Of a stretch of 64,000 nucleotides of DNA, positions 21,336 to 37,273 are shown in pieces (position 1 is the stretch's first letter; the number at the start of each line of letters is the position of its first letter). Source of the stretch: Eubacteriales bacterium (GTDB taxonomy: Bacteria; Bacillota; Clostridia; Oscillospirales; Oscillospiraceae); contig JAUNPV010000001.1 in NCBI GenBank assembly GCA_030536515.1, forward strand, positions 248,001-312,000. Reading direction: 5' to 3'. The position numbers and the translations under genes are program-made. The notes beneath the pieces were generated by a model. That model saw only the letters and a list, made by a program, of their open reading frames with translations. It did not search any database and was not told where the DNA came from.

Positions 21336-22094
21336 TCAACCCGTCTGAACCAGACGGATGCCGGTTTCCTTGCAGCGGCGGACAATTCCCTGGGGGATGT
21401 CCCACTGGGTGATGAGCATTTGGATATCGTCCAGGCTGCCGTAGGACATGAGGCCGGAGGCTCCGAATTTCAGGGAGTCCGCCAGCAGAATGGACTGGTC
21501 GCACTGGGAGATGGCCAGCTTCTTCACCTCGTACTCGGGGTAGGTGGAGACATTGAGCTTGCCGTCCGGGGAGATGCCGGAGGCCCCCATGAAGGCCTTG
21601 TTAAAATGGTAGCGGCTGAGAAATTCCAGGGTGCTCCCGTCGGCCACGGCGTTGGTCCGGCGGTTGAGCTTGCCGGGCAGGATGATGAGCTCCACCTTGG
21701 GCTTCTCCATGGCGTGGGAGAGCACATAGAGGTTGCCGGTGATGATGGTCACCTGCTTGTCCGGGCTGAGAAAGTCAATCAGGTGCATGGCGGTGGTTCC
21801 GGCGTCGATGAAGATGCTCTCGTGGTCCTCGATAAAGGCTGCCGCCGCCTGGGCAATCTTGAGCTTCTCCTTCACCGCCGTGCCGGCCCGCTGCTCGAAC
21901 AGGGGCACCTGGTGGTGGCTGACGGCCAGAACGCCGCCGTAGATTTTCTCCACGGCCCCCACCTCCACCAGATAGGCAACATCCGCACGGACGGTGTTCA
22001 TGGATACCGAAAACTCCCGGCAGAGCTGCTCCATGGAGACAGAGTGCCGCTCCTGGACGAATTGTTCCATCCGCTTCCTTCGGGTGTCTTTCAT
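21336..22094 (-). CDS. DeoR-family repressor (IolR-like role proposed)
   Basis: 252-residue DeoR-type regulator. The N-terminal helix-turn-helix (VSMEQLCREFSVSMNTVRADVAYL) is followed by the phosphosugar-binding DeoR C-terminal domain (DAGTTAMHLIDFL, ITGNLYVLSHAM, FMGASGI). GGAAGGAG precedes ATG 22094; the longer ORF upstream lacks a site. It is divergent from the inositol operon. IolR of Bacillus is also a DeoR protein that senses a phosphorylated inositol intermediate, so local control is likely; the true effector is not visible. Confidence 0.88.
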   Translation of the reverse strand: MKDTRRKRMEQFVQERHSVSMEQLCREFSVSMNTVRADVAYLVEVGAVEKIYGGVLAVSHHQVPLFEQRAGTAVKEKLKIAQAAAAFIEDHESIFIDAGTTAMHLIDFLSPDKQVTIITGNLYVLSHAMEKPKVELIILPGKLNRRTNAVADGSTLEFLSRYHFNKAFMGASGISPDGKLNVSTYPEYEVKKLAISQCDQSILLADSLKFGASGLMSYGSLDDIQMLITQWDIPQGIVRRCKETGIRLVQTG

Positions 22095-22237: not shown

Positions 22238-22266
22238 TTGACAATACACCGGGGTGGTGCTACAAT
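22238..22266 (+). promoter_or_regulatory. Sigma-A promoter of the inositol operon
   Basis: -35 TTGACA (22238-22243) and -10 TACAAT (22261-22266) with exactly 17 bases between. The transcript would start near 22273, about 62 bases before the first gene. Confidence 0.85.
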
Positions 22267-22275
22267 CGCCTTGTA

Positions 22276-22288
22276 GGAAACGTTTGCG
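22276..22288 (+). promoter_or_regulatory. Candidate operator B (inositol operon side)
   Basis: GGAAACGTTTGCG lies just after the predicted start of the inositol-operon transcript, a classic repressor position. It mirrors operator A and shares GGAAACRTTTGCGTAA with operator C at 33905. The DeoR protein is the first candidate ligand; a LacI-type or CcpA (cre-like) protein is an alternative because of the AAACGTTT core. Confidence 0.6.
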
Positions 22289-22334
22289 TAACGCAGACGA
22301 AATAAACACTGAATCTGAAAGTGGAGGAATTCAT

Positions 22335-23390
22335 ATGGCAAAGGTTCGAGTAGGCGTAGCAGGGTACGGCACCATCGGGCAGCGCCTGGCAGACGGCGTT
22401 GCACTGCAGGGGGACATGGAGCTGGTGGGCATTGCCGACCTGGCCCCGACTCTGGCAATCCGGGCCCTGCGGGAGAACGATATGTGCGGCGTGAACAATG
22501 TACCCTATCCTCTGTATCTGGTGGACGGGGCGGACCGGAGCGCCTTTGACGCACTGGACATTCCGGTGGCAGGCACCTTTGAGGAGCTGTGCAGCAAGGT
22601 AGACGTGATGCTGGACTCCTCCCCCGGCGGCGTGGGTGCCAAGAACAAGGAGATTTACAAGCGGCTGGGGGTCAAGGCCATTTTCCAGGGCGGCGAGAAG
22701 AATTCCGTGGCAGACGTGTTCTTCCACGGCTACGCCAACTATGAAAAGGGCGTGGGCCAGGACTATCTGAAGCTGACCTCCTGCAACACCACCGGCCTGA
22801 TTCGGACGGTGGACTGCCTGGACCGGGCCATCGGCCTGGAGAAGGTGGCCATTACCATCATCCGCCGGGTGGCGGACCCCGGCGACTATCACCGGGGCCT
22901 GACCAACGCCCTGCAAATGGACAAGGCCCCCAGCCACCAGGCGGTGGACCTGATGACCATTATGCCCCACGTGGAGGCCACCGGCATTCTGGTCCACACC
23001 CCCGTCACCCACGGCCACATCATCACCGTGCTGGCAACGGCTAAGGACGGGAAGAAGATTACCCGGGACATGGCACTGGAGGCCTTCCGCAAGCACCCCC
23101 GTATCCGCACCGTCACCACCGACGAGGGCTTCAAGGGCAACGCCAGCTTCTTCAAGTACGCCCGGGACCTGGGCAACCGCCGGGGCGATATGTATGAAAT
23201 CGGGCTGTGGGAGGATTCCATCGTGGAGTCCGGCAACGACATTATGTACGCCATCCACATTCCCCAGGAGTCTGTCACCATCCCCGAGACCATGGATGCC
23301 ATCCGGGCCGCCATGAAGATGCAGCTGACCCGGGAGGAGGGCACGGCGCAGACCAACAAGTACCTGGGAATCGGCCGCTTCAAGAGATAA
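22335..23390 (+). CDS. Archaeal-type (class II) glyceraldehyde-3-phosphate dehydrogenase homologue; D-malate semialdehyde dehydrogenase proposed
   Basis: 351-residue NAD(P)-dependent phosphorylating dehydrogenase of the archaeal GAPDH type, unusual in a clostridium. Rossmann loop GVAGYGTIGQRL (residues 7-18), catalytic Cys150 in TSCNTTGL, and RRVADP at 177-182. Archaeal enzymes usually read PSHHG near residue 200 (from memory); here it is PSHQAVD, a change in the active-site neighbourhood. First gene of the operon, GGAGG upstream, followed 11 bases later by a PGK homologue. With the iol genes downstream I infer oxidation of malate semialdehyde to malyl phosphate. Ordinary GAPDH function remains possible. 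Confidence 0.85.
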   Translation: MAKVRVGVAGYGTIGQRLADGVALQGDMELVGIADLAPTLAIRALRENDMCGVNNVPYPLYLVDGADRSAFDALDIPVAGTFEELCSKVDVMLDSSPGGVGAKNKEIYKRLGVKAIFQGGEKNSVADVFFHGYANYEKGVGQDYLKLTSCNTTGLIRTVDCLDRAIGLEKVAITIIRRVADPGDYHRGLTNALQMDKAPSHQAVDLMTIMPHVEATGILVHTPVTHGHIITVLATAKDGKKITRDMALEAFRKHPRIRTVTTDEGFKGNASFFKYARDLGNRRGDMYEIGLWEDSIVESGNDIMYAIHIPQESVTIPETMDAIRAAMKMQLTREEGTAQTNKYLGIGRFKR

Positions 23391-23401
23391 GGGGGCGCAC
23401 C

Positions 23402-24655
23402 ATGGAATTCGGAATCCGGACCCTGGACGAGGCGGAGCTGGCAGGCAAAACCGTCCTGTGCCGGGTGGATATCAACCAGCCGGTGGACCGGGCCAGCGAG
23501 AGCCTTCGCAGCATCAACCGCATCCGGGCCTGCGTCCCCACCGTCCGGGAGCTGTCGGACCGGGGGGCGAGGGTGGTGCTGCTGGCCCACCAGGGCAGCG
23601 ACATCGAGTATCAGAACTATTACACCACCCGCCCCCACCGGGCGGTGCTGGAGCAGCTGCTGGAGCGGCCCGTCCAGTGGATTGACGATGTGTGCGGCCC
23701 CGCCGCCCGGGAAAAAATCCGGGGCCTGAAGGACGGGGAGATTCTGCTGCTGGACAATGTGCGCTTCCTGGCCGAGGAGCAGACCCTGTTTGAAATGAAG
23801 CTCCGCCTGACCCACGAGCAGCAGGCGAAAACCCTGCTGGTGGAGAAGCTGGCCCCTCTGGCGGACCTGTACGTCTGCGATGCCTTCGCCGCCGCCCACC
23901 GGGACCAGCCCAGCCTGTGCGGCTTTGAGCAGGTGCTGCCCTCCTATATGGGAAGGCTTTTCCAGAAGGAATACTGCACCGTTTCCCGGCTGATGGAAAT
24001 GCCGGACCGGCCCTGCCTGTTCGTGCTGGGCGGGGCCAAGGTGTCCGATGCCTTCGGAATGCTGCCGGTGGTGCTGTCCAAGGGCATTGCGGACCGGGTG
24101 GTCACCGGCGGCCTGGTGGGCAACATCTTCCTGGCGGCCCTGGGCCGGGACATTGGCAGCGGCAGCCGCAGCTTCCTTGAGCGGTCCAACAACAGCCAGT
24201 ATCTGGAGGCGGCCAAGGCCCTTTACGAGCGCTACGGGGACAAAATCCTGCTGCCCCGGGACCTGGCCTGGGTGGAGGACGGCTGCCGGAAGGAGGCCCA
24301 TCTGGGAGAAATTCCCGGGGACATCACCTCCACCGACATCGGCTCTGCCACGGCGGAGGCCTACCGCCGGGAAATCCTCCGGGCCAAGACCGTCTTTGTC
24401 AACGGCCCCATGGGGGTGTTTGAGCAGGAGAGCAGCGCCGCCGGGACGAAAACCGTCTGGCAGGCGCTGGCTGACACGGAAGGCTTTACCGTTCTCGGCG
24501 GCGGCGACAGCATCACCGCCACGGAGAGCTACGGTCTGACCCAGCGCATGGGCTACCTGTGCACCGGCGGCGGCGCCCTCATCCGCTTTCTCAGCGGTGA
24601 GGAGCTGCCTGTGGTCCGGGCCCTGCGCCACGGGGCGGACGTGACAAAACAGTGA
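23402..24655 (+). CDS. Archaeal-type phosphoglycerate kinase homologue; malyl-phosphate kinase (D-malate forming) proposed
   Basis: 417-residue PGK-fold kinase. Substrate-pocket residues can be placed against canonical PGK: Asp23 and Asn25 (RVDINQP), Arg40, His63 (LAHQ), Arg121 (DNVRF) and Arg167 (DAFAAAHR). The canonical Arg65, which helps bind the 3-phosphate, is Ser66 here, and the following RPG/DF loop is replaced by DIEYQNYY. C-terminal nucleotide part VNGPMGVFE and GGGDSITA are intact. Loss of one phosphate-binding arginine fits a substrate with carboxylate in place of phosphate. Family assignment is firm; the altered substrate is inference. Confidence 0.85.
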   Translation: MEFGIRTLDEAELAGKTVLCRVDINQPVDRASESLRSINRIRACVPTVRELSDRGARVVLLAHQGSDIEYQNYYTTRPHRAVLEQLLERPVQWIDDVCGPAAREKIRGLKDGEILLLDNVRFLAEEQTLFEMKLRLTHEQQAKTLLVEKLAPLADLYVCDAFAAAHRDQPSLCGFEQVLPSYMGRLFQKEYCTVSRLMEMPDRPCLFVLGGAKVSDAFGMLPVVLSKGIADRVVTGGLVGNIFLAALGRDIGSGSRSFLERSNNSQYLEAAKALYERYGDKILLPRDLAWVEDGCRKEAHLGEIPGDITSTDIGSATAEAYRREILRAKTVFVNGPMGVFEQESSAAGTKTVWQALADTEGFTVLGGGDSITATESYGLTQRMGYLCTGGGALIRFLSGEELPVVRALRHGADVTKQ

Positions 24656-24665
24656 GGTGAAATAA

Positions 24666-25508
24666 ATGGAATTAACCAGGAAAAAGGAATTGGAGGCCCT
24701 GGCCATCCGCATTCGGCTGGCGACTCTGGAGGCCATCCACTCCCTGGGCTCCGGCCATCTGGGCGGCGCGCTGAGCATTGCCGACACCCTGGCGGTGCTC
24801 TACGGCGACCAGATGCGCTATGACCCGAAAAATCCCCAGTGGCCCCAGCGGGACAAGCTGGTGTGCTCCAAGGGCCACGCCGGTCCTGCGGTCTACGGCA
24901 CTCTGGCCGTGGAGGGCTTCTTCCCCTATGATGAGCTGAAAACCCTGAACCGGCCCGGCACCCGGCTGCCCAGCCACTGCGACCGGAACAAAACCCCCGG
25001 CGTGGACATGACCACCGGCTCGCTGGGCCAGGGCACGTCCCTGGCTGCCGGCATGGCTCTGGGCGATAAGCTCCGGGGCCGGGACAGCCGTGTGTTCCTG
25101 ATCGTGGGCGACGGCGAGAGCAACGAGGGCCAGGTCTGGGAGGCTCTGGCCTTTGCCAGCGCCAAGAAGCTGTCCAACCTGGTGGTGCTGCTGGACTGGA
25201 ACAAGCGCCAGCTGGACGGCTGGACCGACGACGTCTACCCCATGGGCGACTATGTGAAAAAGTTCCAGGCCTTCGGCTTTGACACGGTGAAGGTCTGCGG
25301 CAGCGACGTGGAGGCTTTGGCTGAGGCCCTGGAGCGGACCCGGCAGGGAGGCGACAAGCCCTATGCCATCGTTCTGGACACCGTGAAGGGCGCAGGCATC
25401 CCCGACGTTGCCAATACCGTGATGAACCACAGCGTGCCGGTGAGCGACGAGCAGTTCGCCCGCTGGACGGCCCAGCTCCGGCAGGAGCTGGCGGAAAAGG
25501 AGGCGTAG
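24666..25508 (+). CDS. Transketolase, N-terminal subunit (split)
   Basis: 280-residue N-terminal half of a split transketolase, binding thiamine diphosphate through GDGESNEGQVWEALAFA...LLDWN. The usual GHPGG motif is GHLGGA. Works as a complex with the next gene. Transketolases move a two-carbon ketol unit from a ketose with D-threo configuration. Placed between PGK-like and racemase genes and upstream of iolEBDG, it is proposed here to act on 2-deoxy-5-keto-D-gluconate. Split transketolases are common in clostridia for pentose metabolism, so a dedicated copy in this operon is notable. Confidence 0.92.
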   Translation: MELTRKKELEALAIRIRLATLEAIHSLGSGHLGGALSIADTLAVLYGDQMRYDPKNPQWPQRDKLVCSKGHAGPAVYGTLAVEGFFPYDELKTLNRPGTRLPSHCDRNKTPGVDMTTGSLGQGTSLAAGMALGDKLRGRDSRVFLIVGDGESNEGQVWEALAFASAKKLSNLVVLLDWNKRQLDGWTDDVYPMGDYVKKFQAFGFDTVKVCGSDVEALAEALERTRQGGDKPYAIVLDTVKGAGIPDVANTVMNHSVPVSDEQFARWTAQLRQELAEKEA

Positions 25509-25511
25509 GAT

Positions 25512-26474
25512 ATGGCAATCGTTTATAACGGCGAAATGGACCCCCGCCTGTGCAAGAAGGTGCTGGGCCAGGTGATTCCCGCCCTGGCGGCGGAGGACCC
25601 GGACGTTATCTATCTGGATGCGGACCTGATGAACTGCATCGGAACCGCCAAGTGGGCCGGGGAGCACCCGGACCGGGCGGTGAACTGCGGCATTGCCGAG
25701 GCCAACATGATTGGCGTGGCCTGCGGCCTGGCATCGGCGGGCTTCAAGCCCATTGTCCATACCTTCGGCCCCTTCGCCTCCCGCCGGTGCTATGACCAGG
25801 TGTTCCTGTCCGGCGGCTATGCGAAAAACGACATCACCATCATCGGCACCGACCCCGGCGTGACCGCCACCCTCAACGGCGGCACCCATATGCCCTTTGA
25901 AGATGTGGCGCTGTACCGGGCCCTGCCCGGGGCCACCGTCATCGACGTTACCGACCCCACCATGCTGGAAAGCGTCCTGCGCCAGTGCGTCAACCGCCCC
26001 GGTGTCAAGTACATCCGGGTGGGCAGAAAGCAGTACGCCAAGGTCTACGCCGAGGGCACCGAGACCCCAATCGGCAAGGCCATCCCCCTCCGGGAGGGCA
26101 CCGATGCGGTGATTTTCGCCGTGGGCATTATGGTCAGGGAGGCCATGGAGGCCGCCCGGGAGCTGGAGGCGGAGGGCATTTCTGCCGCCGTGGTGGACCT
26201 GTTCACCATCAAGCCTCTGGACGAGGATGCCGTGGCCGCCTGGGCCAAAAGGACCGGGGCCGTGGTGGTGGCGGAAAACCACAACCGCTACGGCGGCCTG
26301 TTCTCCGCCGTGTCGGAGGTGCTGGCCCAGCGGTGCCCGGTGCCTGCGGAGGCGGTGGCCGTGGAGAATGAATTCGGCGAGGTTGGCCCCCAGGGCTATT
26401 TGCAGGAGCGCTTCGGCCTGACCAAGGACCATGTGGTCCGCCAGGTCAAGGCGGCGCTGGCCAGAAAAGGCTGA
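25512..26474 (+). CDS. Transketolase, C-terminal subunit (split)
   Basis: 320-residue partner subunit with the pyrimidine-binding domain (catalytic glutamate in NCGIAEANMIGVACGLA) and the C-terminal domain. It starts three bases after the N-subunit stop region, so the two are made together. The FGPFASRRCYDQV and GTDPGVTATLNGGTHMPFEDVALYR stretches are typical of the split family. Substrate pocket residues that bind the sugar phosphate could not be judged by eye. Confidence 0.92.
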   Translation: MAIVYNGEMDPRLCKKVLGQVIPALAAEDPDVIYLDADLMNCIGTAKWAGEHPDRAVNCGIAEANMIGVACGLASAGFKPIVHTFGPFASRRCYDQVFLSGGYAKNDITIIGTDPGVTATLNGGTHMPFEDVALYRALPGATVIDVTDPTMLESVLRQCVNRPGVKYIRVGRKQYAKVYAEGTETPIGKAIPLREGTDAVIFAVGIMVREAMEAARELEAEGISAAVVDLFTIKPLDEDAVAAWAKRTGAVVVAENHNRYGGLFSAVSEVLAQRCPVPAEAVAVENEFGEVGPQGYLQERFGLTKDHVVRQVKAALARKG

Positions 26475-26477
26475 GCT

Positions 26478-27746
26478 ATGAAGCTGGAATTCGGATACGG
26501 ACCCGGCGTGCAGACTGTGGAGCTGCCGGAGAAAAACCTGATGGGGGTGCTTGTGTCCAACCCCATGGACCACAAGCGGCGGGGGGCCGAGGCGGTGCGC
26601 CACGCCCTTGCCCACCCCATCGGCGCGCCGAATCTTCGGACCCTGCCAAGACCGGGACAGAAAATCGTCATCATCACCAGCGATATCTCCCGCCCCATCC
26701 CCAGCTGGGAGGTACTGCCGCCCGTGCTGGCGGAGCTGGAGGCCGCCGGGTGCCGCCCGGCGGATATCACCGTGGTGTTCGGCCTGGGCTCCCACCGGCA
26801 CCATACCCCCGAGGAGCGGCGGCATCTGGCGGGAGATAAGGTCTATGACACCGTTGCCTGCGTGGACAGCGAGCCGACAGACTGCGTCCGCATGGGCGTG
26901 ACCGGCCGGGGCACCCCTGTGGATATCACCCGGGTGGTGGCGGAGGCGGACTTCCGAATCTGCCTGGGCAATGTGGAATTTCACTATTTTGCAGGCTACT
27001 CCGGCGGGGCCAAGGCCATTATGCCCGGCGTGTCCACCCCGGAGGCCATTGCCTGCAACCACCGGATGATGACCAGCCCCGATGCCTGCGCCGGGAAGCT
27101 GGAGGGAAACCCCATCCGGGAGGATATCGAGGAGGCCGGGGCCATCTGCGGCATTGACTATGTGGTCAACGTGGTGCTGGACGAGCATAAAAAAATCGTC
27201 TACTGCGCCGCCGGCGACGTGACGGCGGCCCACCGGGATGCCTGCGCCTACTTAGACCGGATGTACCGCAAGGCCATTCCGGCCCTGGCGGACATCGTGC
27301 TGGTGTCCCAGGGCGGGGCCCCCAAGGATGCCAACCTCTATCAGACCCAGAAGGCCCTGGACAACGCCAAGCTGGCGGTGAAAAAGGGCGGCACCATCAT
27401 CCTCATCGGTGCCTGCCCCGAGGGGCTGGGCAGCACCGCCTTCGAGCAGTGGCTCACCCAGGCTCCCACCGCCCACTCCATGGTGGAGCGAATCGGCCGG
27501 GAGTTCCAGCTGGGCGGCCACAAGGCGGCGGCCATTGCCATGGTGCTGGAAAACGCCAGAATCGACCTGGTGTCGGAAATGGACGAGAGCTTCGTCCGAA
27601 GCATTTTCCTCAACCCCCAGCCCTCCGCCCAGCAGGCCCTGGACGAGGCCCTTGGCCGCTACGGCCCGGAGGCTACGGTCCTGGCCATGCCCTACGGCGG
27701 AGCGACGCTGCCCCAATGCAGCGAAGAAAAGGAGAGCGCAATATGA
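26478..27746 (+). CDS. LarA-family nickel-pincer racemase; malate racemase proposed
   Basis: 422-residue LarA-family 2-hydroxyacid racemase/epimerase. The pincer-cofactor and catalytic residues can be placed: Asp69 and Arg72 (TSDISRPIP), His106 (GLGSHRHHTPEE), His169 and Lys179 (HYFAGYSGGAKAIMPG). The family includes lactate, malate and other hydroxyacid racemases. Immediately before malic enzyme, and after a kinase expected to give D-malate, malate racemisation is the most economical role. It overlaps the malic enzyme start by four bases. The cofactor genes larBCE are not in the window. Confidence 0.85.
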   Translation: MKLEFGYGPGVQTVELPEKNLMGVLVSNPMDHKRRGAEAVRHALAHPIGAPNLRTLPRPGQKIVIITSDISRPIPSWEVLPPVLAELEAAGCRPADITVVFGLGSHRHHTPEERRHLAGDKVYDTVACVDSEPTDCVRMGVTGRGTPVDITRVVAEADFRICLGNVEFHYFAGYSGGAKAIMPGVSTPEAIACNHRMMTSPDACAGKLEGNPIREDIEEAGAICGIDYVVNVVLDEHKKIVYCAAGDVTAAHRDACAYLDRMYRKAIPALADIVLVSQGGAPKDANLYQTQKALDNAKLAVKKGGTIILIGACPEGLGSTAFEQWLTQAPTAHSMVERIGREFQLGGHKAAAIAMVLENARIDLVSEMDESFVRSIFLNPQPSAQQALDEALGRYGPEATVLAMPYGGATLPQCSEEKESAI

Positions 27747-28915
27747 ATTATGCAGAAGAATCCCTTCGGCTGCACGGCCAGTGGAAGGGTAAAATTGAAG
27801 TGGTGGCCACGGTTCCCGTCAAGACCAAGGACGACCTGAGCCTGGCCTACACCCCCGGCGTGGCCCAGCCCTGCCTGGAAATCCAGAAGGACATCAGCAA
27901 GTCCTACGAGCTGACCCGGCGGCACAACCTCTGCGCCGTCATCACCGACGGCTCCGCCGTGCTGGGCCTGGGGGACATCGGCCCCGAGGCCGGAATGCCG
28001 GTGATGGAGGGCAAGTGCGTGCTGTTCAAGGCCTTCGGCGATGTGGATGCCTTCCCCCTGTGCGTGAAAACCAAGGACGTGGACCAGTTCGTCAATACCG
28101 TTTATCTGCTGTCCGGCTCCTTCGGCGGCATCAACCTGGAGGATATCTCCGCCCCCCGGTGCTTTGAAATCGAGCGGAAGCTGAAGGAAAAATGCGACAT
28201 TCCCATTTTTCACGACGACCAGCACGGCACGGCGGTCATCACCCTGGCGGGCCTGACCAACGCGCTGAAGGTGGTGGGCAAGAAGAAGGAGGACGTGCGC
28301 ATCGTCACCTCCGGGGCGGGAGCCGCCGCCATTTCCATTGTCCGGCTGCTGCTCAGCGCCGGGTTCCGGCACGTGACCATGTGCGACCGGAAGGGCGCTA
28401 TTTACGCCGGCCGGGAGGGCCTGAACTGGATTAAGGAGGAGATGGCCCAGCGGACCAACCTGGAGCGCAGAGCCGGGACCCTGGCCCAGATGCTGGTGGG
28501 CGCAGACGTGTTCATCGGCGTGTCCGCCCCCAACACCGTCACCACCGACATGGTCAAAACCATGAACCGGGATGCCATTGTCTTTGCCTGCGCCAACCCC
28601 ACCCCGGAGATTTTCCCCGAGGATGCCAAGGCAGGAGGCGCAAAGGTGGTTGCCACCGGCCGCAGCGACTATCCCAACCAGATTAACAACGTGCTGGCCT
28701 TCCCGGGCATCTTCCGGGGGACCTTCGACGTTCGGGCGTCGGATATCAACGAGCAGATGAAAATGGCCGCCGCCGGGGCCCTGGCGGGCCTGATTTCCGA
28801 CGGGGAGCTGTCTGCCGACTACATCATTCCCAAGGCCTTTGACCAGCGGGTAGGCCCCGCCGTGGCAAAGGCGGTGGCCCAGGCGGCCCGGGACTCCGGC
28901 GTCGCAAGAATCTAA
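27743..28915 (+). CDS. NAD(P)-dependent malic enzyme
   Basis: 390-residue malic enzyme of the short bacterial type, decarboxylating L-malate to pyruvate and CO2. [50 protein letters not shown] and the Rossmann [12 protein letters not shown] are all family blocks. No ACT or phosphotransacetylase extension. AAAGGAGAG precedes ATG 27743, inside the end of the racemase gene. Coenzyme choice (NAD or NADP) is not clear by eye. Confidence 0.93.
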
Positions 28916-28932
28916 GGAGGAACAGAACTAAT

Positions 28933-29835
28933 ATGTTTGATTCTACGAAGGTAAGGCTGGGCATCGCCCCCATCGGCTGGTGCAACGACGATATGCCGGA
29001 GCTGGGGGCGGAGAACACCTTCCGCCAGACCGTCAGTGAAATGGCCCTGGCCGGCTTCACCGGCTGCGAAATCGGCAACAAATACCCCAGCGACCCGGCG
29101 GAGCTGAAAAAGGCCCTGGACCTGCGGGGCATGACCATTGCCAGCCGGTGGTTTTCCTCCTTCCTGCTGACCCAGGACTATGACCGGGTGCGAAAGGATT
29201 TTGAAAGGGAGCTGGACTTCCTGGCAGCGGTGGGCTGCGACCGCATCAACGTCAGCGAGCAGAGCTGGTCCATCCAGGGAAAGCAGGACGTGCCGGTGCT
29301 CACCGGCGGCCACCGCCACATCATGGACGACAGCCAGTGGGACCGGCTGTGCACGGGCCTCAACGGCCTGGGCAAGGTTGCCCGGGACCGGGGCTTTAAG
29401 CTGTGCTTCCACCACCACATGGGCACCGTGGTCCAGACCGCCGCCGAAACGGAGCGGCTCATGGAGAACACGGACCCGGCGTATGTGTTCCTGTGCTACG
29501 ACACCGGCCACTTCACCTTCGCCGGGGAAAATCCCCTGGCGGTGCTGGAAAAGTACGTCGGCCGGGTGGGTCATGTCCATCTGAAGGATATGCGCCTGCC
29601 GGTGGTGGACCAGGCCCGGCGGGAGAATTGGAGCTTCCTCCAGGCCGTCAGAAACGGGGCCTTCACGGTGCCCGGCGACGGCGGCGTGGACTTTGACCCC
29701 ATTTTTAAGCTGCTGGCCGAGGCCGGCTATGCGGGCTGGCTGCTGGTGGAGGCCGAGCAGGACCCCGCCAAGGCAGACCCCCTGGAATACGCCATGATGG
29801 CAAGACGCTACATCCGTGCCCACACGGGCCTGTGA
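28933..29835 (+). CDS. iolE: scyllo-Inosose dehydratase (2-keto-myo-inositol dehydratase)
   Basis: 300-residue TIM-barrel metal enzyme. The N-terminal LGIAPIGWCNDDMPELG is the IolE signature; metal-ligand regions include LCFHHHMGTVV, LCYDTGHF and VGHVHLKD. It removes water from scyllo-inosose to give 3D-trihydroxycyclohexane-1,2-dione, the substrate of IolD. Strong AAGGAGG ribosome site. Adjacent iolB, iolD and iolG support the role over other xylose-isomerase-like barrels. Confidence 0.92.
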   Translation: MFDSTKVRLGIAPIGWCNDDMPELGAENTFRQTVSEMALAGFTGCEIGNKYPSDPAELKKALDLRGMTIASRWFSSFLLTQDYDRVRKDFERELDFLAAVGCDRINVSEQSWSIQGKQDVPVLTGGHRHIMDDSQWDRLCTGLNGLGKVARDRGFKLCFHHHMGTVVQTAAETERLMENTDPAYVFLCYDTGHFTFAGENPLAVLEKYVGRVGHVHLKDMRLPVVDQARRENWSFLQAVRNGAFTVPGDGGVDFDPIFKLLAEAGYAGWLLVEAEQDPAKADPLEYAMMARRYIRAHTGL

Positions 29836-29849
29836 GGGGAGGCAGAACT

Positions 29850-30659
29850 GTGACCACCTATCTGAACAAACCGGTCCGGCGGGGGTATAACCCCTACATC
29901 GACGCCGCCCGGGACGACCTGGGCACCGCCATGGACGTGGGCCTGCTGGTGCTGGAGGCCGGGGACAGCTATACCATCCGGGAGCCGGAGAAGGAGACGG
30001 CGGTGCTGCTGTTTGCCGGGGACGTGACCCTGGCCTGGGCTGGGCAGAGCTGCCATGCCCGGCGGTCCGACTGCTTCCGCCAGGAGGCCTACTGCCTGCT
30101 GGCCCCCCGGAATACGGAAATCACCGTCACCGCCCAGGGCCCCAGCGAGCTGTACATCCAGCAGACGGAAAACTGCCGGGACTACGCCCCGGTGCTCTAC
30201 ACCCCGGACACCGTCCAGGTCCAGCACGCCGGCGCTGCCGGGGAGCTGATGGGCTGTATGCGCCGGGAGATTAAAACGTTTTTTGACTATGAAAATGCGC
30301 CGTTTTCCAACATGGTGCTGGGGGAGGTTCTGAATTTCCCCGGAAAGTGGTCCTCCTACCCGCCTCACCACCACCCCCAGCCGGAGGTCTACTTCTACCG
30401 CTTTGACCACCCCCAGGGCTTCGGCGCAGGCTTCGCCAACGGCGAAATCTACAAAACCGGCCACAACGGCCTGGCCGTTATCCGGGAGGGCTTCCACAGC
30501 CAGACCGCCGCACCGGGCTATGCCATGTGCTACGCCTGGGGCATCCGGCACCTGGAGGGGGACCCCTGGGAAAAGACCCGCATCGACGACCCGGAGCACG
30601 CATGGCTCTGGAAGCAGGATGCCAACGAGCACATCTTCAAAGGGGAGGAAGGATTATGA
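29850..30659 (+). CDS. iolB: 5-Deoxy-glucuronate isomerase
   Basis: 269-residue cupin isomerase that turns 5-deoxy-D-glucuronate into 2-deoxy-5-keto-D-gluconate. The metal-binding cluster [16 protein letters not shown] (around residue 175) and the N-terminal half-cupin are typical of IolB. I chose GTG 29850 because GGGGAGG at 29836-29842 is well placed before it; an in-frame GTG at 29832 overlaps the iolE stop and would lie before that site. Its stop overlaps iolD (ATGA). Confidence 0.92.
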
Positions 30660-32578
30660 AAACCGTTCGTCTGACCATGGCCCAGGCCCTGGTCCGGTTC
30701 CTTGAAAACCAATACATCGCCTACGACGGCATGGAGCATCCCTTCGTGGAGGGCGTTATCATGCTGCCCGGCCACGGCAACGTGGTGGGCCTGGGCCAGG
30801 CCCTGGCCCAGGAGACCCATCGGATGCAGGTCTGGCAGGGCAAAAACGAGCAGGGCATGGCCCACACCGCCGTGGCCTTCGCCAAGCAGTGCAAGCGCAA
30901 GAAAATCATGGCCGTGACCTCCTCCGTAGGCCCCGGCGCGGCCAATATGGTCACCGCCGCCGCCACCGCCACCGCCAACAACATCCCCGTGCTGCTGCTG
31001 CCCGGCGATGTCTACGCCTGCCGCCAGCCGGACCCGGTTTTGCAGCAGGTGGAGCAGACCCACGATTTGTCCCTGTCCACCAACGATGCCTTCCGGCCGG
31101 TGTGCCGTTACTGGGACCGGATTGTCCGGCCGGAGCAGCTGATGAGCGCCATGCTCAGCGCCATGCGGGTGCTGACGGACCCGGCCAACACCGGCGCTGT
31201 GTGCATCGCCATGCCCCAGGACGTGGAGGGCGAGGCCTATGACTACCCGGAGAGCTTCTTTGCCAAGCGGGTCCACCGGCTGGCAAGGCCGGAGCCCGAG
31301 GCCGAGGCCATTGCCGAGGCGGCCCAGGTTATCCGTCAGGCCAAGCGGCCTGTGCTGGTCTGCGGCGGCGGTGTGCGCTACAGCGAGGCCCATGAACAGT
31401 TCCGGGCCTTTGCCGAGGCCACCGGCATTCCCTTCGGCGAGACCCAGGCGGGCAAGAGCGCCATTGTCTGGGACCACCCCCTGAACCTGGGGGGCATCGG
31501 AACCACCGGCTGCTCCGCCGCCAACGAGATTGCCCGGGAGGCGGACGTGGTCATCGGCGTGGGCACCCGGTATACGGACTTCACCACCGCCTCCAAGTGG
31601 CTGTTCCCGGAGAGCGCCCGGTTCGTCAACATCAATGTCTCTGCCTTCCAGGCCATGAAGCTGGATGCCGTTTCCGTGGTGGCCGATGCCAAGAAGGCTC
31701 TGCCCGTCCTGCAAAAGGCCCTGGAGGGCTATCACGCCCCCTATGACGGCCAGATTGCCCAGGCCAAGGCCCGCTGGGAGCAGGAGCTGGCCCGGCTGGA
31801 CGGCATTACCTTCGGCCCCGGCTATGTCCCCGAGGTCAACGACGACAACGCCCAGTCCGCCTTCCGGTTTGCCGGGGACCTGGACGCGTCCCTGACCCAG
31901 ACCCAGGTGCTGGGCTGCATCAACCACTGCATCGACCGGGATGCCGTGGTCATCGGGGCCTCCGGCTCTCTGCCCGGCGATATGCAGCGGATGTGGCGGC
32001 CCATGGCCCAGGATACCTACAACATGGAGTACGGCTACTCCTGCATGGGCTATGAGATTTCCGGCGCACTGGGTGTCAAGCACGCCGTGGGGGACCGGGA
32101 GGTCTACGCCATGGCCGGTGACGGCAGCTTCGTGATGCTCCACTCCGAGCTGCTGACCGCCGTCCAGGAGCACAAGAAAATCAACGTCTGTCTGTTCAAC
32201 AACGCCAGCTTCGGCTGCATCAACAATCTGCAGGTGGGCCACGGCAACGAGAGCCTGTGCACCGAGCTGCGGTTCCGGGGCGGGGACGGCCGCCATTCCG
32301 GCCCCTTCATGCCTGTGGACTTCGCCATGATTGCCCAGGGCTACGGCTGCCGGGCCTACAGAATCCACACCATGGACCAGCTCCGCCAGGCCATTGCCGA
32401 GGCTAAGGAAATCAAGGACGTGCCGGTGCTGTTTGACATCCGGGTGCTGCCCAAGTCCATGACCGAGGGCTACAGCTCCTGGTGGCGGGTTGGCGACACG
32501 GAGGTGTCCGAGAACCCCAAGAACCTGGCCGCCTACCGGGACCACCTGGACCATGTGAAGGACGTCAGACGCTATTAA
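30656..32578 (+). CDS. iolD: 3D-(3,5/4)-Trihydroxycyclohexane-1,2-dione hydrolase
   Basis: 640-residue thiamine-diphosphate enzyme of the acetolactate-synthase fold that hydrolytically opens the inositol ring. Cofactor glutamate region [33 protein letters not shown], and the GDG...N motif [18 protein letters not shown]...NNASFGC. Length matches IolD. This ring-opening enzyme is the strongest single marker that the operon degrades inositol. GGGGAGGAAGG precedes the ATG. Confidence 0.95.
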
Positions 32579-32597
32579 AAGAAAGGAAGCATTTCAA

Positions 32598-33638
32598 ATG
32601 GATCACAATTTGAAAATCGGCATCATCGGCTGCGGCGCCATTGGCCGGGACCACTGCCGCCGCATTATGAACACGGTCCCCGGGGCCCAGGTGGTGGCTG
32701 TGTCCGACTATGTGGCCGCCGCCGCTGACGACACCGCCGCCAAATACGGCATCCGCTCCTACGGAAACGACTGCGACGGCATGATCTGCGACCCGGAGGT
32801 GGAGGCGGTGGTCATCACCTCCATCGACCCCACCCATCACGACTATGTGATGAAGGTCCTGGCCCAGGAGAAGTGGTGCTTCTGCGAGAAGCCCCTGTCC
32901 CAGAATGCGGCGGACTGCGAGGAGATCATCGCCCGGGAGGTGGAGCTGGGCCGCCGCCTGGTTCAGGTGGGCTTTATGCGCCACTACGACCGGGGCTATG
33001 CGGAGATGAAGCGCATCATCGACTCCGGCGAGCTGGGGGCTCCCCTGGTCATCAAGGCCTGCCACCGCAACGTCAGCCAGGGTCCCGGCTTCAAGACCGA
33101 GAACGGCGTGACCAACGTGGCCATCCACGAGCTGGACATCTGCCGGTGGCTGTTAAGCGACGAGTACGCCGACGCTCAGTGCGTCCGGGTCCGCCAGTCC
33201 GCCAACTCCAACAAGGGCTACGACAACCCCCAGGTCATGCTGCTGCGGACCAAGAAGGGCTGCTTCATCGACGTGGAGGTCCAGGTGGCCGACGGCTACG
33301 GCTATGACATCCAGTGCGAGGTGGTCTGCGAAAACGGCACCGTGAAGCTGCCGGACCCCTACGCCGTGGTCCGCCGGAGCCGCCCCGCCGGGTGGGACAG
33401 CCTGGACCCCGCCGAGTCCATGCCCATTATGACCGACTGGAAGGAGCGCTTCATCGAGGCCTACGACATCGAGCTGTGCAGCTGGGTCCGGTCCGTCCAC
33501 GACGGAAAGCTCACCGGCCCCTCCGCCTGGGACGGGTATGTGGCCTGCGTGGCAGGCGACGCTCTGAACGCCTCCCGGGGCACCTCCCAGTTCCTGCCCG
33601 TGCAGACCATCGAAAAGCCGGAGCTGTATCAGGATTGA
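32598..33638 (+). CDS. iolG: myo-Inositol 2-dehydrogenase
   Basis: 346-residue Gfo/Idh/MocA oxidoreductase. NAD-binding GIIGCGAIGRDHCRRI, catalytic lysine in CEKPLS, QVGFMRHYDRGYAEM and VAIHELDICRWLL agree with IolG. It oxidises myo-inositol to scyllo-inosose with NAD. Last gene of the operon, GAAAGGAAG upstream, terminator 24 bases downstream. Confidence 0.88.
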   Translation: MDHNLKIGIIGCGAIGRDHCRRIMNTVPGAQVVAVSDYVAAAADDTAAKYGIRSYGNDCDGMICDPEVEAVVITSIDPTHHDYVMKVLAQEKWCFCEKPLSQNAADCEEIIAREVELGRRLVQVGFMRHYDRGYAEMKRIIDSGELGAPLVIKACHRNVSQGPGFKTENGVTNVAIHELDICRWLLSDEYADAQCVRVRQSANSNKGYDNPQVMLLRTKKGCFIDVEVQVADGYGYDIQCEVVCENGTVKLPDPYAVVRRSRPAGWDSLDPAESMPIMTDWKERFIEAYDIELCSWVRSVHDGKLTGPSAWDGYVACVAGDALNASRGTSQFLPVQTIEKPELYQD

Positions 33639-33661
33639 TTTTTCCATTCCTCCCCATTACA

Positions 33662-33692
33662 CGGGGCCAGGCGAAAGCCTGGCCCCGTTTCT
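33662..33692 (+). terminator. Terminator of the inositol operon
   Basis: 11-base-pair GC-rich stem (33662-33672 with 33677-33687), GAAA tetraloop, then TTTCTCT. It lies just after iolG. Confidence 0.9.
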
Positions 33693-33904: not shown

Positions 33905-33917
33905 GGAAACATTTGCG
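33905..33917 (+). promoter_or_regulatory. Candidate operator C upstream of transporter
   Basis: GGAAACATTTGCG, extended to GGAAACATTTGCGTAA, matches operator B of the inositol operon in 15 of 16 positions, and the CGCAGA that follows is also shared. It suggests one regulator for inositol catabolism and this importer. Confidence 0.55.
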
Positions 33918-34048
33918 TAAAGCGCAGATATTACGAAAAAGTTTACAATTCCCACAAAAGACTTCCTAAGATTCTCCATCTAAATCACTAATTACAATGT
34001 ACTATTTTTATAAAATGTGACAGAAATTTGCGGGTTTTCATTTGCAAA

Positions 34049-34215: not shown

Positions 34216-36033
34216 GTGAAGAGCAATAGAAAACCCTTTAACAAAACGCGTCTGAAAAACCAGTTTCTGAACGTGGTCAAAAACCCCTTTAACATGATTG
34301 TGCTGATCACGCTCATCATTCTGTTTTGTCTCATTGTGATTCCCCTGCTGCAAATGATCGCCTCCACCTTCACGGTGGCCAAGGCGGAGCTTCGCCGGAT
34401 TGACGGCTCCAGCGTAGGCGACTTTACCCTGTACTACTGGAAGTACATCCTCACCGGCAAGCTGGCCGCCGCCACGCTGTGGGGCCCGCTGAAGAACTCC
34501 CTGGTGGTTGGCCTGTTCACCACCCTGGTGTCCGTGCCTCTGGGCTCGGTGCTGGGCTGGCTGGTGGTCCGGTCGGACCTGCCCGGCAAGAAGGTCATGG
34601 GTATGCTGGTGGTAATCCCCTACATGATTCCCTCCTGGTGCAAGGCCCTGTCCTGGCTGGCCGTGTTCCGCAACAAGACCTCCGGCTCCTTGGGCTTCCT
34701 GGCAGGTCTGGGCCTGAACATTCCCGACTGGCTGGCCTACGGCCCGGTGGCCATTGTGCTGTGTATGTCGCTGCACTATTACGCATTTTCCTATATCCAC
34801 GTGTCCTCCGCCCTTCGCTCCATCAATTCGGAGCTGGAGGAAATGGGTGAAATCTGCGGCGCCAACAAGGCCCAGATTCTCAAATCCATCACCCTGCCCC
34901 TGGTGCTGCCCAGCATCCTGTCCGCCGTGGTTATGACCCTGAGCAAGGCCATCGGCACCTACGGCGTGGCGGCAAACCTGGGCAACCGCATCGGCTACTT
35001 CACCCTGGCCACCAAGATGAAAACCTTCATCGCCGGCGGCCCCCAGAACGTAGGCTACGCCATGAGCCTGGTGCTCATCGGCATGGCGGCCATGATTATC
35101 TTTGCCAACCAGCGCCTCATCGGCGTGCGCAAGTCCTATGCCACCATCGGCGGCAAGGGCGGCCGCTCCAACGAGATGCACCTGGGCGCAGCCAAGATTC
35201 CGCTGATGATTTTCCTGGTGGCCTTCCTGTTCTTCGCCATGGTGGCGCCCATGTTCGTGCTGGTGATGGAGACCTTCCAGGTCACCACCGGCGCAGGCTA
35301 CGGCCTGGACAACCTGACGCTGTACAACTGGATTGGCCAGGACGGCGACATTCAGAAGTACATCAACTACCCCGGCATCTTCCGGAACAAGGAATTCGCC
35401 GGCGCCGTGTGGAACACCATCCGGCTGACCTTCATCGGCTCCATCATCACCGCTCTGTGCGGCCAGTTCCTGGGCTACATCTCCACCAGAGGCCGTGGCA
35501 AGTGGTATGGCTCCCTGACCGAGCAGCTGGTGTTCGTGCCCTACCTGATGAGCGGCGTGGCCTTCTCGTCCATGTACGTGGCCATGTTCAGCAAGTCCCA
35601 CCTGGGCGGCGTGGTGCCTGTGCTCTACGGCACCTTCACCCTGATTGTTCTGACCTCCGTGGTCAAGCACTTCCCCTTCGCCAGCCGGTCCGGCACCGCC
35701 AACATGATGCAGATTTCCACAGAGCTGGAGGAGGCGGCGGATATCAACGGCGCCAACTTCTGGCAGCGGATGGGCAAAATCGTCCTGCCGCTGGCAAAGA
35801 ACGGCTTTATCTCCGGCTTCATGCTGACCTTCATCTCCATCGCCAAGGAGCTGGACCTGATCATCATTATGATGGACAAGCACACCCAGACCATGTCCTA
35901 CCTGGCCTTTACCTACTCCCAGGAGGGCTACAACCAGATGGCCGACGCCATTTCCGTGTGCGTTCTGCTGTTTATTCTGGTCTGCTACATCATCGCCAAC
36001 CGCTTCGGTGCCGACATCGGCAAGGCATGGTAG
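34216..36033 (+). CDS. ABC importer permease, two fused permease domains (AfuB/FbpB type)
   Basis: 605-residue membrane protein with two binding-protein-dependent permease domains. The EAA-type loops that contact the ATPase are EMGEICGANKAQILKSITLP and EAADINGANFWQRMGKIVLP, one per half. Such fused permeases are found in iron(III), phosphonate, thiamine and hexose-phosphate (AfuABC) importers. The start is GTG 34216 after AAAGGAG; the longer ORF upstream covers the promoter. It heads the permease-ATPase-binding protein unit downstream of the inositol operon. Substrate inferred only from context. Confidence 0.88.
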   Translation: MKSNRKPFNKTRLKNQFLNVVKNPFNMIVLITLIILFCLIVIPLLQMIASTFTVAKAELRRIDGSSVGDFTLYYWKYILTGKLAAATLWGPLKNSLVVGLFTTLVSVPLGSVLGWLVVRSDLPGKKVMGMLVVIPYMIPSWCKALSWLAVFRNKTSGSLGFLAGLGLNIPDWLAYGPVAIVLCMSLHYYAFSYIHVSSALRSINSELEEMGEICGANKAQILKSITLPLVLPSILSAVVMTLSKAIGTYGVAANLGNRIGYFTLATKMKTFIAGGPQNVGYAMSLVLIGMAAMIIFANQRLIGVRKSYATIGGKGGRSNEMHLGAAKIPLMIFLVAFLFFAMVAPMFVLVMETFQVTTGAGYGLDNLTLYNWIGQDGDIQKYINYPGIFRNKEFAGAVWNTIRLTFIGSIITALCGQFLGYISTRGRGKWYGSLTEQLVFVPYLMSGVAFSSMYVAMFSKSHLGGVVPVLYGTFTLIVLTSVVKHFPFASRSGTANMMQISTELEEAADINGANFWQRMGKIVLPLAKNGFISGFMLTFISIAKELDLIIIMMDKHTQTMSYLAFTYSQEGYNQMADAISVCVLLFILVCYIIANRFGADIGKAW

Positions 36034-36065
36034 GCTGAAGAACCGTTACAGAAAGGAACCGTGTT

Positions 36066-37184
36066 ATGAGCAGAATTGAACTGAAGCATATTGATAAATT
36101 CTATGGCAGCAACCATGTCCTGCGGGACATCAACCTGACCATTGAGGACGGCGATTTCATGACCCTGCTGGGCCCCTCCGGCTGCGGCAAGACCACCACG
36201 CTGCGTGTGGTCTCCGGCCTGGAAAAGCCCCAGAACGGCGTGATGACCATTGACGGCGAGGAAATGATTAACGCAGACCTTGCCTACTACGCCGAGCCCA
36301 GCAAGCGGGGACTGAACCTGGTGTTCCAGTCCTACGCCCTGTGGCCCCACATGACCGTCCGGGAGAACATCGCCTTCGGCCTGAAAATCCAGAAGCTGCC
36401 CAAGGACGAGGTGGAAAAGCGGGTGAAGGAGTCCCTGCGGATGATGCGCATTGAGGATTACATCGACCGCTACCCCAACGAGCTGTCCGGCGGCCAGCAG
36501 CAGCGTGTGGCCATTGCCCGGGCCGTTGCCTCCAACCCCAAGCTCCTGCTGCTGGACGAGCCTCTGAGCAACCTGGACGCCCGGCTGCGCATCGATATGC
36601 GCTCGGAGCTCCAGCGCATCCACAGAGAGCTGGGCACCACCATCATCTACGTCACCCACGACCAGGTGGAGGCGCTGACCATGTCCACCAAGATTGCCCT
36701 GTTCAAGGCAGGCGAGCTCAGCCAGGTGGCCTCTCCCATGGACCTGTACATGAACCCCATCGACCTGGAGGCCGCCGACTTCATCGGCAACCCCAGAATC
36801 AACTTCCTCAAGGGCACGGCCGAGCACGCAAACGGCAAGCTGAACGTGTCCTGCGAGCTGGGCGAGCTGTGCTTCGACCAGGCGGACATGACCGACGAGC
36901 CCATCCCCGACGGCCGCTTTGACTGCGTGGTGGCCATCCGGCCCGAGCAGGTCCAGATTTACGACGAGCCTGCGGCGGACCGCTTCCCGGTGAAGGTCTA
37001 CGCCAACCAGCCCGCCGGCTCCGAGACCCTGGTGTCCCTCCAGGCAGGCAGCAGCGATTTCCTCTCCAAGCAGATCGGCCTTGCCCACTATGAGATTAAC
37101 CAGGAGGTCTACGTCCACATTCCCCCGGAGAAAATCAACATCTACAACGCCCAGAGCACCCGCCTGATTAAGCGGGCAAGATAA
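36066..37184 (+). CDS. ABC importer ATP-binding protein
   Basis: 372-residue ATPase of the PotA/FbpC/AfuC group. Walker [11 protein letters not shown]-loop FQSYALWP, signature LSGGQQQR, Walker B LLLLDEP and the switch histidine in VTHDQVEA are intact. The C-terminal 130 residues are a TOBE-type regulatory domain. It energises the fused permease just upstream (32-base gap, AGAAAGGA site). Confidence 0.93.
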   Translation: MSRIELKHIDKFYGSNHVLRDINLTIEDGDFMTLLGPSGCGKTTTLRVVSGLEKPQNGVMTIDGEEMINADLAYYAEPSKRGLNLVFQSYALWPHMTVRENIAFGLKIQKLPKDEVEKRVKESLRMMRIEDYIDRYPNELSGGQQQRVAIARAVASNPKLLLLDEPLSNLDARLRIDMRSELQRIHRELGTTIIYVTHDQVEALTMSTKIALFKAGELSQVASPMDLYMNPIDLEAADFIGNPRINFLKGTAEHANGKLNVSCELGELCFDQADMTDEPIPDGRFDCVVAIRPEQVQIYDEPAADRFPVKVYANQPAGSETLVSLQAGSSDFLSKQIGLAHYEINQEVYVHIPPEKINIYNAQSTRLIKRAR

Positions 37185-37273
37185 TCCGTTTCCCCTCGCC
37201 GAGGGCTCGGCGATTTATGAAAAAAGCACCTGCAACACCCACCAATCCACACAATACGGAAGGAGAACGAAAA

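Follow-up and report, generated by a model that had tools for sequence, protein, structure and literature searches.

In the canonical Bacillus-type route for myo-inositol (iolG, iolE, iolD, iolB, iolC, iolJ and iolA), the enzymes IolG, IolE, IolD and IolB yield 2-deoxy-5-keto-D-gluconate (DKG) by established chemistry, and a kinase and an aldolase, at the expense of ATP, then cleave between C3 and C4 to give dihydroxyacetone phosphate and malonate semialdehyde. An alternative is the Thermotoga route (IolM, IolN and IolO), in which another ring ketone is hydrolysed and which leads into uronate metabolism. The subject of this work is an operon of ten genes at positions 22335-33638 of a stretch of 64,000 nucleotides (the window) from a Eubacteriales bacterium (assembly GCA_030536515.1, contig JAUNPV010000001.1). 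It shares with the Bacillus-type route the four upper enzymes that lead to DKG, it has no IolC, and none of the genes of the Thermotoga route is found in it. Judging from its sequence and that of its relatives, this operon probably specifies a new lower half of myo-inositol fermentation, via transketolase and malate. DKG would be split by the transketolase between C4 and C5, and the products would be malate and a two-carbon unit with a gain of ATP, instead of dihydroxyacetone phosphate and malonate semialdehyde with ATP spent. Since the route would use no IolC kinase, no ATP would be invested in DKG. The proposed route would thus be a new variant of inositol catabolism, the upper enzymes of which are already known. 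A literature search aimed at it found no publication on a transketolase route for inositol, within a coverage that left out most subscription papers.

Parts of the proposed route have counterparts in other systems. In the sulfo-transketolase pathway the split transketolase SqwGH transfers a ketol unit to glyceraldehyde 3-phosphate, the donor being an anionic ketose without phosphate, and the sulfofructose transketolase carries RAFDR in place of RSFHR, according to the accessible text of PMC11659671. The window transketolase is likewise split and shows the same replacement of His by Asp in its phosphate site, but has Cys instead of Ala at the position of human S345; its proposed donor is a carboxylate and not a sulfonate, and its product would be oxidised by homologues of glyceraldehyde-3-phosphate dehydrogenase (GAPDH) and phosphoglycerate kinase (PGK), whereas that of SqwGH is isomerised and split again. 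An earlier note on the window had drawn an analogy with this sulfoquinovose pathway, and the likeness in logic and in the His-to-Asp change holds, but the operon is not a member of the pathway: the map of its open reading frames (ORFs) and Pfam searches revealed no sulfo-pathway genes in it, and with Cys instead of Ala the identification of the window enzyme as a sulfo-transketolase was rejected. In the degradation of L-carnitine by Acinetobacter, the conversion of malic semialdehyde to D-malate and on to pyruvate and CO2 has been demonstrated, as proposed here; in the accessible text of PMC11353897, that route differs in that the semialdehyde is made by an oxygenase and oxidised by a simple NAD(P)-dependent dehydrogenase with no gain of ATP, and, unlike the window operon, its reconstituted form has no racemase. 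The LarAH6/Mar2 malate racemase of Thermoanaerobacterium thermosaccharolyticum has its family, cut-off and specificity residues in common with the LarA protein of the window. The word inositol is absent from the main text of two papers on LarA (PMC11770544 and PMC7583248), which make no link to inositol.

The ten ORFs all have the same orientation (+), neighbors being a short distance apart or overlapping slightly, and encode, in this order, a type II (archaeal-type) GAPDH, a PGK, the two halves of a transketolase, LarA, a malic enzyme, IolE, IolB, IolD and IolG, as assigned by Pfam and NCBIfam profile searches and by the nearest PDB chains. Drawn by hand from C6, DKG reads CH2OH-CO-CHOH(left)-CHOH(right)-CH2-COO-, which is the configuration of D-xylulose, and cleavage by a transketolase leaves OHC-CHOH(right)-CH2-COO-, that is D-malate semialdehyde, from which oxidation gives D-malate. 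The redrawing hence gives both the D-threo DKG and the D-malate product of the earlier note. In the proposed route IolG, IolE, IolD and IolB would turn myo-inositol into DKG, and the split transketolase would transfer C5-C6 of DKG to an aldose phosphate, for example glyceraldehyde 3-phosphate to give xylulose 5-phosphate, leaving D-malate semialdehyde. The GAPDH homologue would convert the latter, with NAD+ and phosphate, to D-malyl phosphate, from which the PGK homologue would form D-malate and, from ADP, ATP. Because the predicted product is D-malate, either a racemase ahead of malic enzyme or a D-malate dehydrogenase would be needed. On family-level evidence, the nickel malate racemase would give L-malate and malic enzyme would release pyruvate, CO2 and NAD(P)H, while in some relatives a single tartrate/D-malate dehydrogenase would take the place of both.

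Evidence for this route comes from the distribution of IolC. The canonical upper set is complete in the operon: IolE (inosose dehydratase, 28933-29835) and IolD (trihydroxycyclohexane-dione hydrolase, 30656-32578) exceed their NCBIfam cut-offs (401 vs 290 and 911.5 vs 715), the divergent IolB-type isomerase (29832-30659) exceeds that of Pfam KduI/IolB and has the IolB-like 2qjv, a weak match, as nearest PDB chain, and the chain nearest to the IolG-type inositol dehydrogenase (32598-33638) is the inositol dehydrogenase 3mz0 (295 bits). As previously claimed, neither iolC nor iolJ nor iolA is found inside the operon by the ORF map and Pfam; the search for iolJ and iolA covered the operon, that for IolC the whole source genome, in which no protein passes the TIGR04382 cut-off (best PfkB match, 186 of 300 bits). 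Among 394 genomes of the source order, IolD was present in 37 and type II GAPDH in 8 (in one, G231, only as fragments at contig ends), and all 8 fall within the 37 (Fisher p 2.9e-9, uncorrected for kinship). IolC occurred in 14 of the 37 and in none of the 8. Sorted by genome, 11 of the 37 have IolC only, 23 transketolase only, three have both on different IolD copies, and none has neither. In all 23 IolC-less genomes a transketolase lies within 12 kb of an IolD, with an identity to that of the window of at least 43%, against 39% at most in the 11 genomes with IolC only. When the 50 IolD copies are considered one by one, 29 are within 12 kb of an operon-type transketolase and 9 of IolC, no copy is near both and 12 are near neither, the last being five single copies with IolC on another contig and seven extra copies, one of which (in G383) is accompanied by an N-terminal transketolase half near a contig end. 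IolC and the operon-type transketolase are mutually exclusive beside IolD. On the question, raised in the earlier note, whether iolC is absent wherever this gene set occurs, IolC exceeds the cut-off in none of the 28 genomes that carry the operon GAPDH (27 distinct, G355 and G405 being one genome), compared with 3 of 14 controls. Three of the 37 IolD genomes, each with several IolD copies, carry both IolC and the operon-type transketolase.

The sequence of the transketolase points in the same direction. Both halves (N-terminal, 24666-25508, binding thiamine diphosphate (ThDP); C-terminal, 25512-26474) are recognised by Pfam and NCBIfam and have the ThDP fold, and an IAE motif aligns with Glu366 of human transketolase, which we take to be the catalytic glutamate. 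At the human positions R318, S345, H416 and R474, presumably those that bind phosphate, the window protein aligns with K, C, D and R (R318K/S345C/H416D), and D424 is replaced by N; the phosphate-binding set of pentose-phosphate transketolase is not kept. In a tree of 86 transketolase rows, those with the signatures [KN]CDN (46) and RCDN (19) form one clade with a support of 1.0, five R[SA]DN rows adjoin this clade from outside, and 15 canonical R[SA]HD rows stand apart. His416 and Asp424 are kept in every one of 13 canonical transketolases taken from IolD genomes, while each of the 23 IolC-less genomes, and each of the three with both genes, has at least one IolD-linked copy with the CDN signature. 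The idea that this enzyme takes a donor devoid of phosphate is therefore supported, as far as residues and gene distribution can tell, by the loss of the phosphate-binding residues and by the exclusion of IolC beside IolD. At L232:6982-10339, a related transketolase with the signature RADN immediately follows a protein that exceeds the cut-off for IolN, which is the hydrolase of the Thermotoga route.

The GAPDH homologue (22335-23390), a putative NAD-dependent phosphorylating D-malate semialdehyde dehydrogenase, exceeds the type II equivalog cut-off of NCBIfam (391 vs 185), and the catalytic SCNTTG is present in 87 of 87 rows. At residue 35, where four archaeal GAPDHs invariably have Lys, 84 of these rows have Asp and 3 have Asn, a change that may indicate a preference for NAD+ over NADP+. 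The PGK homologue (23402-24655, with a refined start), a putative ATP-forming D-malyl phosphate kinase, passes the Pfam cut-off (369.6 vs 27), and its best PDB match is the archaeal PGK 2cun. It keeps Asp23, Asn25, Arg38, His62, Arg122 and Arg170, of which Asp23, Asn25 and Arg38 are presumed to read C1 and C2 of 3-phosphoglycerate. Position 65, where an Arg or Lys presumably binds the 3-phosphate, is occupied by Ser in 72 and by Asp in 3 of 75 operon-type rows, as opposed to Lys or Arg in all 24 canonical PGKs (23 distinct) from genomes with the operon GAPDH. Because the C1/C2 residues are kept while Arg65 is lost, a substrate lacking the 3-phosphate is predicted, and the pattern fits one whose hydroxyacyl end is unchanged and whose tail is a carboxylate. 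A second PGK match is present in 25 of the 28 genomes with the operon GAPDH (one is partial) and a type I GAPDH in 26 of the 28, the source genome being included in both counts. The source genome has its own housekeeping PGK and type I GAPDH, and the operon pair are extra copies. These second copies, together with the altered position 65 and the conserved C1/C2 residues, favor the proposal that the two homologues act on malate semialdehyde and malyl phosphate.

The fate of the predicted D-malate can be followed in the genes next to this pair. LarA (26478-27746) exceeds the NCBIfam equivalog cut-off for the LarAH6-type nickel-dependent malate racemase (539.8 vs 500), its nearest PDB chain is the malate racemase Mar2 (6d6z), and the next gene encodes an NAD(P)-dependent malic enzyme (27743-28915, also with a refined start). 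Malate racemases usually have H/Q and K at the positions of LarA W358 and T359, according to the accessible text of PMC11770544, and HK is found in 58 of 59 LarA rows from the related loci and the window, the remaining row being gapped. On this family-level evidence of cut-off and residues, the window LarA would racemise malate. The LarA proteins of L047, L082 and L085 also exceed the cut-off, that of L034 being below it, and LarC, for the synthesis of the nickel-pincer nucleotide (NPN) cofactor, is present in the source genome (482 bits) and in 17 of 28 genomes. In one locus (L078), from a genome without IolD, the gene after GAPDH and PGK codes for an Iso_dh protein that exceeds the cut-off of the tartrate dehydrogenase family TIGR02089 (503.7 vs 470.4), which we take to include D-malate dehydrogenases. 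Such a dehydrogenase was found in only two of the 37 IolD genomes (G312 and G241), in both of which it adjoins GAPDH-PGK; neither has an over-cut-off malate racemase, a weaker LarA being encoded elsewhere in G312. In another genome (G342) a D-isomer 2-hydroxyacid dehydrogenase lies beside GAPDH and a more distant PGK. The racemase and dehydrogenase families can also act on tartrate. Since both swapped families share D-malate as substrate, their exchange beside GAPDH-PGK is pointing to D-malate as the predicted product of the PGK homologue, and with the LarAH6 cut-off and the HK residues it lends support to a racemase that makes L-malate from D-malate.

The association of these genes extends well beyond the window. 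GAPDH relatives were found on 418 stretches in one genome collection, and the best 80 were studied as loci. Where no less than 1.2 kb of downstream DNA is available (72 loci), PGK immediately follows GAPDH in 62, and where each flank extends to 9 kb or more (29 full loci), PGK is present in 28, LarA in 25, IolD in 24, transketolase in 19 and malic enzyme in 15. A locus from the cultured Oscillibacter valericigenes An411 (L081) has GAPDH-PGK, with IolD at another place in the genome. Because of this adjacency and of the IolD found in 24 of the 29, the association is not due to chance; chance clustering was ruled out, the set persisting while the gene order differs among loci. The GAPDH-PGK(-LarA) module is not confined to inositol: as some genomes in which no IolD exceeds the cut-off carry it too, in part beside uronate genes, GAPDH-PGK must serve something else as well. 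In L059 the pair and the same type of transketolase lie beside UxaE, and in L082 they are accompanied by a KduI-like protein, a protein of the mannitol dehydrogenase family, UxuA, LarA and malic enzyme; in both genomes no IolD exceeds the cut-off, and a hexuronate version of the route is possible there. Four contigs labelled as spirochaete (L034, L039, L045 and L046) carry GAPDH-PGK-iolE-iolB-iolD, with a distant LarA on three of the four and no transketolase found within the contigs; horizontal transfer is possible.

Other explanations of the operon have to be considered. Described members of the transketolase, GAPDH and PGK families act on sugar phosphates, and these enzymes might do the same here, supplying or draining glyceraldehyde 3-phosphate while DKG is processed by another kinase and an aldolase; the source genome has other PfkB kinases (best 186 bits), and in rumen loci a gene over the phosphoglycerate mutase cut-off lies nearby. 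This seems unlikely to us, given that housekeeping copies of GAPDH and PGK are already present, that phosphate-binding residues kept in the canonical homologues are lost in the transketolase and the PGK, that IolC and the operon-type transketolase exclude each other beside IolD, and that glycolysis leaves unexplained why a racemase or a tartrate/D-malate dehydrogenase is linked to GAPDH-PGK. With second canonical copies and altered phosphate sites, an ordinary glycolytic role for the operon was rejected. The donor could also be another 5-keto acid, fructuronate or 5-ketogluconate, in which case tartrate semialdehyde and tartrate would be formed instead of malate. Relatives do stand beside UxaE (L059), UxuA and a mannitol-dehydrogenase-family gene (L082) and IolN (L232), the swapped dehydrogenase family carries the name of tartrate, and the accessible text of PMC11770544 describes a side activity of malate racemases on tartrate; nevertheless, in the window a single operon unites these genes with malic enzyme and with iolE, iolB, iolD and iolG, the racemase exceeds the malate cut-off and the IolN-linked transketolase has the different signature RADN, which leaves this reading highly improbable. 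We regard as equally remote the view that the transketolase step is right but an unlinked aldehyde dehydrogenase oxidises the semialdehyde, GAPDH-PGK having its role elsewhere. It would suit the 15 IolD genomes in which the transketolase occurs without type II GAPDH, and a simple malic semialdehyde dehydrogenase is known from carnitine breakdown (PMC11353897, accessible text), but it conflicts with the position of PGK directly after GAPDH, with the racemase in 25 of 29 full loci and with PGK residues that suit a non-phosphate C4 substrate.

The route via transketolase and malate must itself be weighed against several observations that count against it. Within the operon, IolB is below the NCBIfam iolB cut-off (98 vs 205) and IolG below both of its own (358 vs 540 and 179 vs 355), and a comparison of the GAPDH pocket with four archaeal structures gave the near-invariant changes H202Q, P221H, T223P, M225T and K35D, from which no tie to the substrate emerged. 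LarC is missing in 11 of the 28 genomes. In 7 of the 24 full loci with IolD, no transketolase is present in the fetched DNA; no weaker transketolase match was found in these seven loci, and no substitute among ten neighbors taken from some of them and from L034. IolD is not over the cut-off in 8 of 32 genomes with type II GAPDH (G355 and G405 again counted separately), including that of L078, one of the eight having it in two pieces. Fifteen of the 23 IolC-less IolD genomes, all of family f13, lack type II GAPDH though a transketolase is present, and no malate racemase or tartrate/D-malate dehydrogenase over the cut-off was found in these 15, four of which have weaker LarA matches; the idea that they use LarA or such a dehydrogenase was accordingly rejected. 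The IolD neighborhoods of 11 of them contain transketolase (11), malic enzyme (7) and IolE (5), and the scan of seven further neighbors gave regulators or no match, and no oxidising enzyme. Rumen loci have, two genes ahead of GAPDH (so in L011), a gene for a phosphoglycerate mutase homologue, and its family (F11) is found near GAPDH in 15 loci, one member having been scanned and found over the phosphoglycerate mutase cut-off; the glycolytic reading would predict such a neighbor too. In the one example read, this iPGM homologue (L011:7356-8951) has its C-terminal half preceding the N-terminal half, as if circularly permuted.

The ten genes appear to be transcribed together from a sigma-70-type promoter found by sequence scan at 22238-22266 (+; TTGACA-17-TACAAT, 11/12 match, with TG before the second hexamer) to a hairpin at 33661-33688 (+; 12-bp stem, GAAA loop, followed by TTTCTCT; z -4.5 over an 82-base stretch), the latter not being listed by the separate element scan that gave the promoter. 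The earlier description of a single run with one promoter and one terminator is thus borne out by ORFs, families and both elements. Divergent from the operon lies a gene for a DeoR-family regulator (21336-22094, -), a candidate repressor with NCBIfam DeoR/GlpR-type matches that are all below equivalog cut-offs. Between promoter and GAPDH, an operator-like element of 24 bases with the palindrome TGCGTAACGCA (22276-22299, +) resembles a second one at 33905-33928 (+), ahead of a promoter-like site of an ATP-binding cassette (ABC) transporter; the search pattern was derived from the sites at 22276 and 33905 themselves, and its chance estimate of zero is a generous one. The shared element, a candidate operator, suggests that operon and transporter are under common control. 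The transporter genes (34219-38587, +; ORFs and NCBIfam) encode a permease, an ATPase (36066-37184) and a candidate solute-binding protein (37217-38587) for which the NCBIfam search gave no match, and form a candidate uptake system for the substrate, presumably linked to inositol through the shared element.

Phytate and phospholipids supply inositol as a common substrate in the gut and rumen. If the proposed route is true, the ATP saved on DKG and the substrate-level phosphorylation via malyl phosphate would alter the energy accounting for many uncultured Clostridia, and the accounting of products would shift to pyruvate and possibly, through malate, to succinate. Proteins now named GAPDH, PGK and transketolase by family would gain a substrate, the nickel malate racemase a physiological role, and D-malyl phosphate would be a natural intermediate. 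More tentatively, and with doubts that outweigh our confidence to some extent, we may hypothesize that the pentose-phosphate pathway and lower glycolysis have a complete carboxylate counterpart in anaerobes, in which a clade of split transketolases with H416D/D424N cleaves carboxylated ketoses (DKG, fructuronate, 5-ketogluconate) and dedicated GAPDH-PGK pairs gain ATP from C4 acid semialdehydes; if so, besides inositol in the case of the window operon, it would probably serve hexuronates in L059 and L082 and the IolN route in L232. Bacteria of the gut and rumen appear to have a previously unseen route for inositol, in which relatives of sugar-phosphate enzymes would act on an unphosphorylated acid and gain ATP.

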